Positions 15,541 to 39,020 of a stretch of DNA of 49,468 bases are shown in pieces. Position numbers and translations under genes: made by a program. The notes beneath the pieces are model-generated. The model was not told where the DNA came from, did not search any database, and saw only the letters and a program-made list of their open reading frames with translations. Each line of letters starts with the position of its first letter. The stretch's first letter is position 1. The DNA is from Corynebacterium sp. (lineage in GTDB: Bacteria > Actinomycetota > Actinomycetes > Mycobacteriales > Mycobacteriaceae): contig JAUMUD010000002.1 of NCBI GenBank assembly GCA_030530875.1, positions 1-49,468 on the forward strand, given 5' to 3'.

Positions 15541-15751
15541 GTGGTTTAGTTAACAGAATTGATGGTAGATCTTCCAATTAACCTGGTGTAATGTATGAGT
15601 GTATGGAATCCCGCTGTGGGTTCCTCAGCCTTTTTTAAAGCAGTCACAGCCGGGTTTTGAAATGCCTACGTGCTTCTGTGAGTTGCATTTTCGAAAAATC
15701 TGGCTAATCTTATAAAAGACTAAAGAACCATCAACAGTAAAGGAAATGATG

Positions 15752-16102
15752 ATGAAATTCCGCAAGGCCCTCATTGCTAGCGCTACCGCCGCTGCTGTTT
15801 CCGTTGCCGGCCTCCACGCTCCTGCCATGGCTGATGAGGCTACCGTGGACTTCGGCGATACCATCGCTACCCAGACCGCTGGTGCTTCTGGCTCCTCCTC
15901 CATCGGCAACGCTGTTGCTTCTCCTTTTAAGGCTATCGCTCGTGGCCTCTTCGGTGAGGGTTACACCATGGAGTCCATCACCAAGCAGATCTCCAAGTGG
16001 GTCGCTCTTCTGACCTCTATTGCTTCCGTGTTCACCGCTATTGTGTCCATCTCCACCTCCGTGAACAAGCTGAGCACCACCCTGGCCAACCCAGGCAAGT
16101 AA
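15752..16102 (+). CDS. Small secreted helical protein of unknown function
   Basis: A 116-residue protein with a clear signal peptide (MKFRKALIAS start, cleavage after AMA at residue 27) and a mature part of about 89 residues. The mature part has a Gly/Ser/Ala-rich stretch followed by a predicted amphipathic/hydrophobic helix (WVALLTSIASVFTAIVSIST) and the tail NKLSTTLANPGK. No Cys in the mature protein. Codons are strongly biased to GCT, ACC and TCC, as in abundant proteins. Three ATG codons lie close together; the third (15752) is chosen because AAAGGA ends seven bases before it, while the first at 15746 almost touches it. The shape recalls small envelope-associated or pore-forming corynebacterial proteins, but no family is recognised. 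Monocistronic, with its own terminator. Confidence 0.78.
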   Translation: MKFRKALIASATAAAVSVAGLHAPAMADEATVDFGDTIATQTAGASGSSSIGNAVASPFKAIARGLFGEGYTMESITKQISKWVALLTSIASVFTAIVSISTSVNKLSTTLANPGK

Positions 16103-27676: not shown

Positions 27677-28558
27677 TTACCAACCGCGCTCAGCGAGGCG
27701 GTGTGGAACTGGAATCTCGTCCACATTGATACCAACCATGGCCTCACCAAGACCACGGGAGACCTTAGCGATGGTTGCTGGGTCATCGTAGTTCTGGGTT
27801 GCCTGGACAATAGCGCGGGCGCGCTTGACTGGATCGCCGGACTTGAAGATACCGGAACCAACGAAAACACCATCAGCACCGAGCTGCATCATCATGGCAG
27901 CATCGGCTGGGGTGGCAATACCACCAGCGGTGAATAGAACCACTGGGAGCTTACCGGTCTCAGCAACTTCCTTCACGAGCTCATATGGAGCCTGCAGTTC
28001 CTTGGCTGCCACGTAGAGCTCATCCTCAGCCATGGAGCTCAAGCGGTTAATCTCTGCGCGGATGGTGCGCATGTGGGTAACAGCATTGGAGACATCACCG
28101 GTACCAGCCTCACCCTTGGAGCGAATCATGGCTGCACCCTCGTTAATACGACGAAGAGCCTCACCGAGGTTGGTAGCACCGCAGACGAATGGAACGGTGA
28201 AGCCGAACTTATCGATGTGGTTGGAGTAGTCAGCAGGGGTCAGAACCTCAGACTCATCAATGAAGTCAACACCAAGGCTCTGGAGAACCTGGGCCTCAAC
28301 GAAGTGGCCGATACGAGCCTTGGCCATCACTGGGATGGAGACTGCGTTAATGATTCCCTCAATCATGTCTGGATCAGACATGCGGGAAACGCCACCCTGG
28401 GCGCGAATATCAGCTGGTACGCGCTCGAGCGCCATAACGGCGGTCGCACCTGCATCTTCGGCAATCTTTGCCTGTTCTGGGGTAACAACGTCCATGATGA
28501 CGCCGCCCTTAAGCATCTCTGCCAAGCCGCGCTTTACACGTGGGGTTCCTACACTCAC
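27677..28558 (-). CDS. pdxS: Pyridoxal 5'-phosphate synthase lyase subunit
   Basis: A 293-residue PdxS TIM-barrel enzyme that builds PLP from ribose 5-phosphate, glyceraldehyde 3-phosphate and ammonia from Pdx[36 protein letters not shown] and active-site Lys80 in VMAKARIGH are intact. GTG 28558 is preceded by AAAGGAG. The MocR-type regulator PdxR often found beside corynebacterial pdxST is not in this window, so control must come from elsewhere, perhaps through the box at 28600. Confidence 0.98.
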
Positions 28559-28599: not shown

Positions 28600-28611
28600 A
28601 CCCATGATACA
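28600..28611 (-). promoter_or_regulatory. 12-bp box upstream of pdxS (mirror copy at 28756)
   Basis: ACCCATGATACA here is the exact reverse complement of bases 28756-28767. Read toward pdxS it contains TATCAT, a possible -10, about 42 bases before the start codon. Confidence 0.5.
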
Positions 28612-28755
28612 TCCAAAGACGCTGAGCAGTTAGACACAGTTTAACGCTTTACTCTGACCTGCACAAACGCCCAGGACTAGACAAATAAATAGACCAAGCT
28701 GTATAGTTGTTCTTACCCAAACTACATACGAATTTCCACAAACGTGAAGTACTGG

Positions 28756-28767
28756 TGTATCATGGGT
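28756..28767 (+). promoter_or_regulatory. 12-bp box upstream of the 40-residue ORF (mirror copy at 28600)
   Basis: TGTATCATGGGT, identical to the pdxS-side box when each is read toward its own gene. TATCAT may be the -10 of the small ORF, with a leader of about 60 nt. Confidence 0.5.
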
Positions 28768-28828
28768 CTTAAGAGATTAAGAGCCATGGTGTTTCCACAC
28801 CAACCAACTACAGAAAGAAGGTCCCATC

Positions 28829-28951
28829 ATGACTCGCTCGATTTTCTTCGGTCTCAACGCCAACGCCCACCAGTTCCTCAAGCCATATGGCTCCACGAAC
28901 CTTAAGCCTACCGACGACACCGAACCACAAGACATTGCCCCTGCAGCATAA
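28829..28951 (+). CDS. Stand-alone 40-residue ORF of unknown function
   Basis: ATG 28829 to TAA 28951, beginning MTRSIFFGLNANAHQFLKP and ending in an acidic, Pro-rich tail (TDDTEPQDIAPAA). No signal peptide, membrane helix, Cys or recognised family. It looks like a real gene: AGAAAGAAGG precedes the ATG at good spacing, codons are those of well-expressed genes (CTC, AAC, GGT, TTC, GCC), its own 12-bp-stem terminator starts at the stop codon, and it is flanked by full intergenic DNA. It could be a small regulator, a leader-type peptide or a precursor that is further processed. A non-coding RNA with a chance ORF is the main alternative. Confidence 0.65.
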   Translation: MTRSIFFGLNANAHQFLKPYGSTNLKPTDDTEPQDIAPAA

Positions 28952-28985
28952 AAAATGAGCTCCCGTGTGGGAGCTCATTTTTTTC
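28951..28985. terminator. Bidirectional terminator between the 40-residue ORF and pimA
   Basis: AAATGAGCTCCC (28953-28964) and GGGAGCTCATTT (28969-28980) form a 12-bp stem with GTGT loop, flanked by A-tract and T-tract, so it can serve both convergent genes. Confidence 0.95.
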
Positions 28986-28986
28986 T

Positions 28987-30090
28987 TTACGCAAGGTGGA
29001 CTTTGGTTCCATCTTGAACCGCCTCGTAGACGCGCATGACATCGCGTGCCACGGTGGCCCAGTCATAGATTTCCGCGCGCTTCTTCCCCGCTGCTTGGAG
29101 CTGAGCGCGCTTTTCCGGATTTGTGATTAGGTCCACAAGCACCCGTGCGAGGTCCTGCGCGTCCTCGTTCTTAAAGAGTGCGCCCGCAGGCTGCTCAGAA
29201 TCCGCGTCACAGACAAGCCTAAAGGCCTCAAGGTCACTGGCCACCACAGCAGCGCCAGCCGCCATAGCTTCCACGAGCACAATACCGAAGCTCTCACCGC
29301 CAGTATTTGGGGCCACGTAGATATCCGAACGGCCCAGAACCGTAGCTTTTTCCTCATCGCTCACACGACCAAGGAAATCCACGCCAGGAACTTCCCTGCG
29401 CTCACCGCCACCCATCACGCTAATTTTGAGCTGGACCTCTGTCTCTTGCCGCACGGTCTTGAGTGCCTCAAGCAGATAATTCAGCCCCTTGCGTGGCTCA
29501 TCCAGGCGGCCAAGGAAGCAGATTTCCACCGCCTCACCGGGCTGCTTGACTACCTCATGCTTAGCAAAAAAGCCCGTATCCACACCATTTGGGATCAATA
29601 CTGGGTCAGTACCCAGTTGCTCCACCTGCCAGCGACGGGCAAGTTCAGACACAGCAATGCCACCACGGATACGCTCAAGATAGGGGCGCAGCCATGGGGT
29701 CGAGAGCTTCAAAAGAATACTGCTATTGGCCGAGACATGGTAGGTGGCCACAATAGGCCCCTCACAGGCTTTGAGTGCTGCAAGGGAGAAACCAGGAACA
29801 TTAGGCTCATGGATATGGAGGACATCAAAATCGCCCTCCTCAATAAAGTCCTTAACCTTGCGGTTCACATGACGACCGAAGGAGAGGCGGGCAACAGAGC
29901 CGTTATATTTAATCGCAGTGGAGGCGCCACCCTTGACAATAAAATCGGGCACTTCAGTTTCCGCCGAACATGGACCCAGGACCTTTACATAATGGCCTTG
30001 GGCAATATAGACCTTGGCCAGGTCGATAATGTGGGCCTGCACGCCACCGGGTTCATCAAAGGAATAAGGGCATATGAATCCAATGCGCAT
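28987..30090 (-). CDS. pimA: Phosphatidyl-myo-inositol mannosyltransferase PimA
   Basis: A 367-residue GT4 glycosyltransferase that adds the first mannose from GDP-mannose to phosphatidylinositol on the cytoplasmic face of the membrane. The N-terminal MRIGFICPYSFDEPGGVQAHI is characteristic of PimA. The C-terminal Rossmann half has FLGRLDEPRKGLNYLLEAL and the donor-site GGESFGIVLVEAMAAG. ATG 30090 is 17 bases after patA. The HIT-pgsA-patA-pimA order is the conserved actinobacterial PIM cluster. Confidence 0.97.
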   Translation of the reverse strand: MRIGFICPYSFDEPGGVQAHIIDLAKVYIAQGHYVKVLGPCSAETEVPDFIVKGGASTAIKYNGSVARLSFGRHVNRKVKDFIEEGDFDVLHIHEPNVPGFSLAALKACEGPIVATYHVSANSSILLKLSTPWLRPYLERIRGGIAVSELARRWQVEQLGTDPVLIPNGVDTGFFAKHEVVKQPGEAVEICFLGRLDEPRKGLNYLLEALKTVRQETEVQLKISVMGGGERREVPGVDFLGRVSDEEKATVLGRSDIYVAPNTGGESFGIVLVEAMAAGAAVVASDLEAFRLVCDADSEQPAGALFKNEDAQDLARVLVDLITNPEKRAQLQAAGKKRAEIYDWATVARDVMRVYEAVQDGTKVHLA

Positions 30091-38431: not shown

Positions 38432-38507
38432 TGGAGCGGATGACGAGACTCGAACTCGCGACCCTCACCTTGGCAAGGTGATGCGCTACCAACTGCGCTA
38501 CATCCGC
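38432..38507 (-). tRNA. tRNA-Gly(GCC), copy 1, CCA encoded
   Basis: Full cloverleaf on the minus strand beginning GCGGATGTAGCGC, with anticodon loop TTGCCAA and T arm GAGTTCGAGTC. Discriminator T is followed by a genomically encoded CCA. Confidence 0.97.
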
Positions 38508-38534
38508 AATGAGTTACTGAATAATCAGTAATCG

Positions 38535-38606
38535 TGGGCACTACTGGGATTGAACCAGCGACCTCTGCCGTGTGAAGGCAGCGCTCTCCCGCTGAGCTAA
38601 GCGCCC
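38535..38606 (-). tRNA. tRNA-Val(CAC)
   Basis: Cloverleaf beginning GGGCGCTTAGCTCAGC. Anticodon stem CTGCC/GGCAG with loop TTCACAC gives CAC. Discriminator A; CCA not encoded. Confidence 0.96.
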
Positions 38607-38612
38607 ATTGCG

Positions 38613-38683
38613 AGGTGGAAACGGGAATCGAACCCGTGTACACGGTTTTGCAGACCGTTGCCTAACCACTCGACCATTCCACC
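38613..38683 (-). tRNA. tRNA-Cys(GCA)
   Basis: Cloverleaf beginning GGTGGAATGGTCGAG. Anticodon loop CTGCAAA gives GCA. Discriminator T as usual for Cys; CCA not encoded. Confidence 0.96.
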
Positions 38684-38732
38684 GAGTAGAGGTTACTCTA
38701 CGTGGGGTAATCCGAAAGATTCGGGATACCAG

Positions 38733-38805
38733 AGCGGATGACGAGACTCGAACTCGCGACCCTCACCTTGGCAAGGTGATGCGCTACCAACTGCGCTACA
38801 TCCGC
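38733..38805 (-). tRNA. tRNA-Gly(GCC), copy 2
   Basis: Identical over 72 bases to copy 1, but CCA is not encoded. Confidence 0.97.
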
Positions 38806-38850
38806 ATACATAAATAGCCCCTAAGGGCTACTTTTTAAGCCTTTCGGCAG

Positions 38851-38922
38851 TGAGCACGACTGGGATTGAACCAGCGACCTCCACCGTGTCAAGGTGGCGC
38901 TCTCCCGCTGAGCTACGCGCTC
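38851..38922 (-). tRNA. tRNA-Val(GAC)
   Basis: Cloverleaf beginning GAGCGCGTAGCTCAGC. Stem CCACC/GGTGG with loop TTGACAC gives anticodon GAC. CCA not encoded. Confidence 0.96.
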
Positions 38923-38947
38923 TCACTGTGCAATAATTTTTGCACCG

Positions 38948-39020
38948 AGCGGATGACGAGACTCGAACTCGCGACCCTCACCTTGGCAAGGTGATGCGCT
39001 ACCAACTGCGCTACATCCGC
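38948..39020 (-). tRNA. tRNA-Gly(GCC), copy 3
   Basis: Identical over 72 bases to the other two copies; CCA not encoded. First tRNA of the transcript. Confidence 0.97.

Follow-up and report, generated by a model that had tools for sequence, protein, structure and literature searches.

A candidate orphan microprotein gene of 40 codons between pdxS and a PimA-like gene in Corynebacterium sp.

In the 428-bp gap between a divergent pdxS gene and a convergent PimA-like gene of Corynebacterium sp., we found a short ORF that displays the codon signature of a gene, a ribosome binding site (RBS), a hairpin at its stop codon and a 12-mer also present upstream of pdxS, and that had no convincing match in the relatives searched. 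We believe that this arrangement is most plausibly, and on the whole probably, explained by a freestanding monocistronic mRNA for a soluble, lineage-restricted microprotein, with a promoter core in common with pdxS and a hairpin in common with the PimA-like gene. The features on which this reading is built are given below, with positions in the window, that is, the whole stretch of 49,468 nucleotides that was analysed.

27677-28558, minus strand: divergent pdxS (PdxS equivalog models over the cut-off)
28600-28611, minus strand: 12-mer TGTATCATGGGT, copy upstream of pdxS (genome pattern search)
28678-28707, plus strand: alternative upstream promoter-like match, TAGACA-18-TATAGT (10/12 match)
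28756-28767, plus strand: 12-mer TGTATCATGGGT, copy upstream of the ORF (genome pattern search)
28758-28763, plus strand: putative -10 hexamer TATCAT of the ORF promoter, with a weak -35 TCCACA at 28735 (9/12 match)
28759-28790, no strand assigned: imperfect dyad ATCATGGGTCTTAA-gaga-TTAAGAGCCATGGT with 12/14 pairs, possible operator (shuffle test)
28812-28821, plus strand: ribosome binding site AGAAAGAAGG (sequence; SD duplex energy)
28829-28951, plus strand: 40-codon ORF, candidate orphan microprotein gene (ORF list; gene-like codon usage)
28950-28983, no strand assigned: symmetric intrinsic-terminator-like hairpin between the ORF and the convergent PimA-like gene, usable from both strands (folded on both strands)
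28987-30090, minus strand: convergent PimA-like glycosyltransferase gene (glycosyltransferase domains)

The ORF runs from ATG to TAA and its translation is MTRSIFFGLNANAHQFLKPYGSTNLKPTDDTEPQDIAPAA, in agreement with the position and the length of 40 amino acids given by a previous, sequence-only reading of the same DNA. That reading had also described a good ribosome site. This is confirmed here by the purine-rich AGAAAGAAGG that ends 7 nt before the ATG, and by the duplex formed by the 20 bases upstream of the ORF and the anti-SD sequence (-10.6 kcal/mol, versus -9.1 kcal/mol for pdxS); the ORF belongs, then, among the short ones (≤50 codons) that carry a ribosome binding site. The predicted accessibility, however, counts against the ORF as a gene: folding of the predicted short transcript leaves the ribosome-site GG largely in base pairs (unpaired probability 0.07 and 0.03), while the A and U of the start codon are approximately 0.8 unpaired and its G 0.29. 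The 4.4-kDa peptide carries no Cys and lacks any extended hydrophobic segment (best 19-residue mean hydropathy 0.07), which argues against a type I toxin-antitoxin toxin, a small protein of hydrophobic, membrane-spanning character. As the previous reading had stated, no recognised domain was found, since neither Pfam nor NCBIfam nor PHROGs held a profile matching the 40 residues at E≤10; a PDB search was equally negative at that threshold. Its suggestion of a peptide precursor gathered no positive support, there being no long hydrophobic segment and no Cys, and the immediate neighbours being pdxS and the PimA-like gene.

The codon usage of the ORF was compared with a model made from 140 predicted genes of the window and seven stretches of the same assembly (~185 kb in total). 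The LLR per codon over base composition (0.256; gene mean 0.261) and the synonymous score (0.168; gene mean 0.182) were at the 50th and 46th percentiles of the 140 host genes, respectively, a comparison that is somewhat circular because this reference set was itself chosen by codon score. Less affected by this is the comparison with 799 non-gene ORFs of 35-60 aa, out of frame or intergenic, from ~185 kb of the same genome: none of them matched the CAI or the synonymous score of the ORF and only one its LLR. Likewise, none of the 143 intergenic ORFs of this control (gene overlap <30 bases), and none of 2000 stop-free base shuffles, attained any of the three scores. The other two forward frames scored -0.48 and -0.56, and the best reverse frame -0.04. 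The GC content of third and second codon positions (26/40 and 18/40) was suggestive only, the skew test alone giving p=0.058. Altogether, the ORF displays the codon composition of selected genes and, on this basis, is very probably a real coding gene.

For the CAI, EF-Tu plus EF-G were used as the high-expression reference, because the operon of ribosomal protein L4, which was the first choice, could not be taken from an assembly with no L4 match. All 14 control genomes were positive for L4, and the host assembly is probably incomplete. The CAI of the ORF (0.522) was above that of 79% of the 140 genes and of 68% of 1228 equally long gene fragments; pdxS (0.651), yebC (0.617) and EF-Tu (0.784, itself in the reference set) all had higher values. 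The codon choice had been described as that of an abundant, strongly expressed protein; given these values, above-average expression is a fair description and "strong" is an overstatement. Codon choice, nevertheless, favours an ORF translated under selection over an RNA with no coding role, and it is on codon choice that an undescribed microprotein becomes the best supported of the options put forward by the sequence-only reading.

Two promoter-like matches precede the ORF (28678-28707, 10/12; 28735-28763, 9/12), versus 0.6 ± 0.9 in shuffles, and the promoter-like box noticed earlier was thus recovered. The putative -10 TATCAT falls inside the 12-mer TGTATCATGGGT, which has three exact copies in the assembly and no others in a search that allowed up to one mismatch. 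Since the reversed pattern used as a control yielded five matches versus three for the true one, the 12-mer is not enriched by number. Its placing is unusual: two of the three copies are in the gap between pdxS and the PimA-like gene, and a distant exact inverted pair of that length appeared only twice when the gap was shuffled 1000 times with its dinucleotides preserved. The third copy precedes a Crp-family gene by 173 bp and falls just outside a redoxin-like gene that is divergent. The dyad at 28759-28790, which spans the putative -10 and the presumed transcription start, was equalled in 1 of 300 shuffles. In corynebacteria, -10 regions are often followed by GG. We read the 12-mer as a putative promoter core shared by the ORF and pdxS, possibly with the dyad as operator. 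The link to vitamin B6 supply suggested previously stands as a positional one, to which one exact 12-bp element common to both upstream regions can be added, and nothing further. That a lineage-specific microprotein co-regulated with PdxS through this core binds or tunes either PdxST, the synthase of pyridoxal phosphate, or a regulator that senses PLP is to our judgement a long shot. In C. glutamicum, apo-PdxR is described as binding the pdxST-pdxR intergenic region in a regulon study (PMC5320631).

Homologues were searched in overlapping genome samples of the genus, family and order, in which the genome of origin served as the positive control unless stated. Ten of 151 genus genomes, this one included, gave protein matches at E≤1; the other nine were weak and none was a convincing homologue, the best (E 0.073, 38% over residues 5-36) falling, in five genomes, within frames of 350-401 codons. 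The family search returned the genome of origin alone (1/401 at E≤0.1), and the order search (2/397) added to it one match at E 0.019 with an internal TGA. Seven chosen genomes, which included G058 and G023 (see below), yielded no match at E≤10 in a search run without a positive control. At the DNA level, 201 of 242 genus genomes, self included, presented some match to the region at E≤1; among the matches listed outside the genome of origin, all were of 42 bases or less and the best had an E of 0.0028 over 23 bases. A 20-bp match (28854-28873) recurred in many genomes and was taken as chance, because in the nine loci examined the flanking residues were unlike those of the ORF. The ORF had no match in plasmids; phage searches gave none at 1e-5 and two at E 10, and viral contigs had no match to the exact back-translated motif. 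At the depth of the genus, family and order samples, therefore, no homologue was found in any related genome, an outcome that the sequence-only reading had named as one that would count against it. This outcome is a weak test: even the nearest genome shares no more than 77% identity in its PimA-like protein, 40 residues give low search power and the records nearest to the host were possibly excluded. Within the bounds set by the genomes sampled and by this search power, there were only weak matches outside the lineage, and the best reading of these searches is a lineage-restricted gene, one more small-protein gene of that kind.

The genes on both sides of the gap are widespread, with pdxS in 232 of 242 genus genomes (E≤1e-60) and the PimA-like gene, whose product is 67% identical to that of C. 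phoceense, in 219 of 242 (E≤1e-100). The nearest genome was G058 by the PimA-like protein (77%) and G023 by PdxS (97%; 96% for G058). By motif count, a conserved gene of ~155 aa is near 26 of the 30 top-ranking pdxS loci, the window's own among them. The four loci without it nearby were the window, G058, L054, where it is beyond the first locus and was found in L124, and L077, where the frame is broken. The same gene follows the PimA-like gene in 18 of 21 PimA-like loci, the exceptions being the window, G058 and L083, the last of which matches a looser motif. It was also present in 11 of 12 gap loci chosen by hand, ten of them for their long gap, and again G058 was the exception. A relative of it exists elsewhere in the host genome (L142, 5955-6434) and in G058 (L143, 6025-6492), adjoining the same 427- and 474-aa ORFs in both, which we take to mean that the rearrangement of the gap predates the split between the host and G058. 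Beside this relocated gene, a search for relics of the ORF region gave nothing better than chance.

The coding scores of the 19 ORFs of 18 aa or longer in the G058 gap (~777 bp) were all below zero (-0.19 to -0.69), and the window ORF scored +0.215 under the G058 codon model (18 genes). Accordingly, a fast-diverged homologue in that gap was rejected. When one gap was compared with the other by BLAST, the best alignment (E 0.14) covered no more than the ribosome site of pdxS. By eye, the G058 gap (L134) shows repeated units like GGTCA...GGCACTCGGTGCAGAACNGC. With no coding-like ORF in the G058 gap, the gene would have been gained in the line of the window, or lost or moved in that of G058. With the codon usage of an established gene, the ORF is more likely an older gene that was lost elsewhere, or has diverged there until unrecognisable, than one born very recently from random DNA.

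The apparent rebuilding of the gap, with the ~155-aa gene relocated beside the same neighbours in the host genome and G058, also fits the idea that rearrangement cut down a longer gene and left its 5' stub as the ORF, which would be decaying and would have its codon signature by inheritance. In line with it, nine of the 12 chosen gap loci (L125-L133; ten of the 12 chosen for length) carry a plus-strand ORF of 403-462 aa that is divergent from pdxS and occupies the same place and orientation. However, the ORF bears no similarity to that frame (best tblastn E 0.89, 12 loci) and was rejected as its stub, no longer frame in the genus gave a convincing match, and the RBS, the promoter-like elements and the stop flush with the hairpin are all intact, so that we regard a truncated remnant as unlikely. 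Searches with one copy each of the ~155-aa and the 403-aa (L126) neighbours produced no Pfam or NCBIfam match at E≤0.001.

Other alternatives concern the RNA, and depend largely on the hairpin. Its arms (28950-28964 and 28969-28983) form 15 of 15 pairs around a 4-nt loop, the first base being inside the ORF stop codon; with symmetric A and T tracts, it folds from either strand. Since the convergent PimA-like gene stops 3 nt away (stop codon 28987-28989), we read the hairpin as common to both genes. A private terminator with a 12-bp stem had been proposed: the hairpin does begin inside the stop codon, but it is a symmetric 15-bp one between two convergent genes, which rules out that it is private. 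A consensus terminator scan found none and did not list this hairpin, perhaps because the T-run was counted inside the stem. The whole predicted transcripts folded better than shuffles (z -4.07 to -4.81; -4.24 and -4.07 for two transcripts), as would be expected if the product were a non-coding small RNA (28770-28985 or longer) with an accidental reading frame. The intergenic position and the lack of a convincing protein homologue agree with this, as does the report that more than half of the C. glutamicum sRNAs seem species-specific (PMC4046766). Nevertheless, the fold excess came mostly from the hairpin, without which z was only -1.37 and -1.51 (19/200 and 16/200 shuffles folded as well), so that a structured RNA as the main product is weakened. 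Moreover, Rfam at gathering thresholds found six tRNAs in the window and no known sRNA family, the short DNA matches listed above extend to other genus genomes for 42 bases at most, and the codon signature is in exactly the frame that bears the RBS; an sRNA with an accidental frame is thus improbable. A dual-function RNA that both encodes the peptide and base-pairs with targets would suit the compact unit of ORF plus hairpin, but the region outside the hairpin is barely more structured than shuffles and the DNA search of the genus gave no relatives showing RNA conservation, and we give this possibility very little credit. A short ORF followed directly by a terminator-like hairpin also recalls the style of an attenuator. 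Since an attenuator requires a same-strand gene downstream of the terminator and the PimA-like gene is on the minus strand, there is nothing to attenuate; gene orientation essentially refutes it, and with no run of one regulatory amino acid in the peptide a leader peptide or upstream regulatory ORF is extremely unlikely.

Under the microprotein reading that we favour, RNA polymerase would start at a promoter whose 12-bp core is also found upstream of the divergent pdxS, yielding a transcript of ~215 nt, or ~270 nt from the alternative upstream promoter, that would end at the hairpin common to the convergent PimA-like operon. Translation from the Shine-Dalgarno site would produce an acidic, soluble 4.4-kDa peptide with a hydrophobic/aromatic N-terminal half and a predicted disordered acidic tail, which is probably cytosolic and most likely would act there through binding to another macromolecule. 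Similar cases have been described. In M. tuberculosis, 90 new, unannotated ORFs with codon-level signs of selection are reported in a work where codon signals serve to tell small ORFs under selection from noise of translation (PMC9094748). Those ORFs resemble ours in being short, in their codon composition of selected genes and in the argument applied, but their translation was shown by ribosome profiling, whereas our ORF is known from its sequence alone. Of eight small mRNAs in a C. glutamicum sRNA work, whose main text does not include pdxS (PMC4046766), seven are conserved in other genomes. They are, as the ORF, transcript-sized Corynebacterium units with RBS and hairpin, and differ from it in that the latter was not convincingly found elsewhere. 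sORFdb, as described by its authors, contains 41,097 singletons, i.e. small proteins without homologues, as is the ORF, whose status as true or false positives is unclear (PMC11796252); in contrast with these ambiguous entries, codon evidence favours a real gene here. If translated, the ORF would be a well-delimited orphan microprotein with the codon usage of an established gene, even though G058 is without it at the same locus, and would allow birth, loss or very rapid divergence of a gene to be tested in an intergenic region that was rearranged. The ORF alone reveals no new mechanism.

Elsewhere in the window, the six tRNA genes are packed in 589 bp (38432-39020, minus strand); three are tRNA-Gly(gcc) genes of identical Rfam score, among which those for Val(cac), Cys and Val(gac) are interspersed. 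Finally, an ORF of 118 aa (15746-16102), starting MMMKFRKALIASATAAAVSVAGLHA, displays a signal-like start and a CAI of 0.707, among the top ten of the 140 genes, and perhaps encodes an abundant exported protein.
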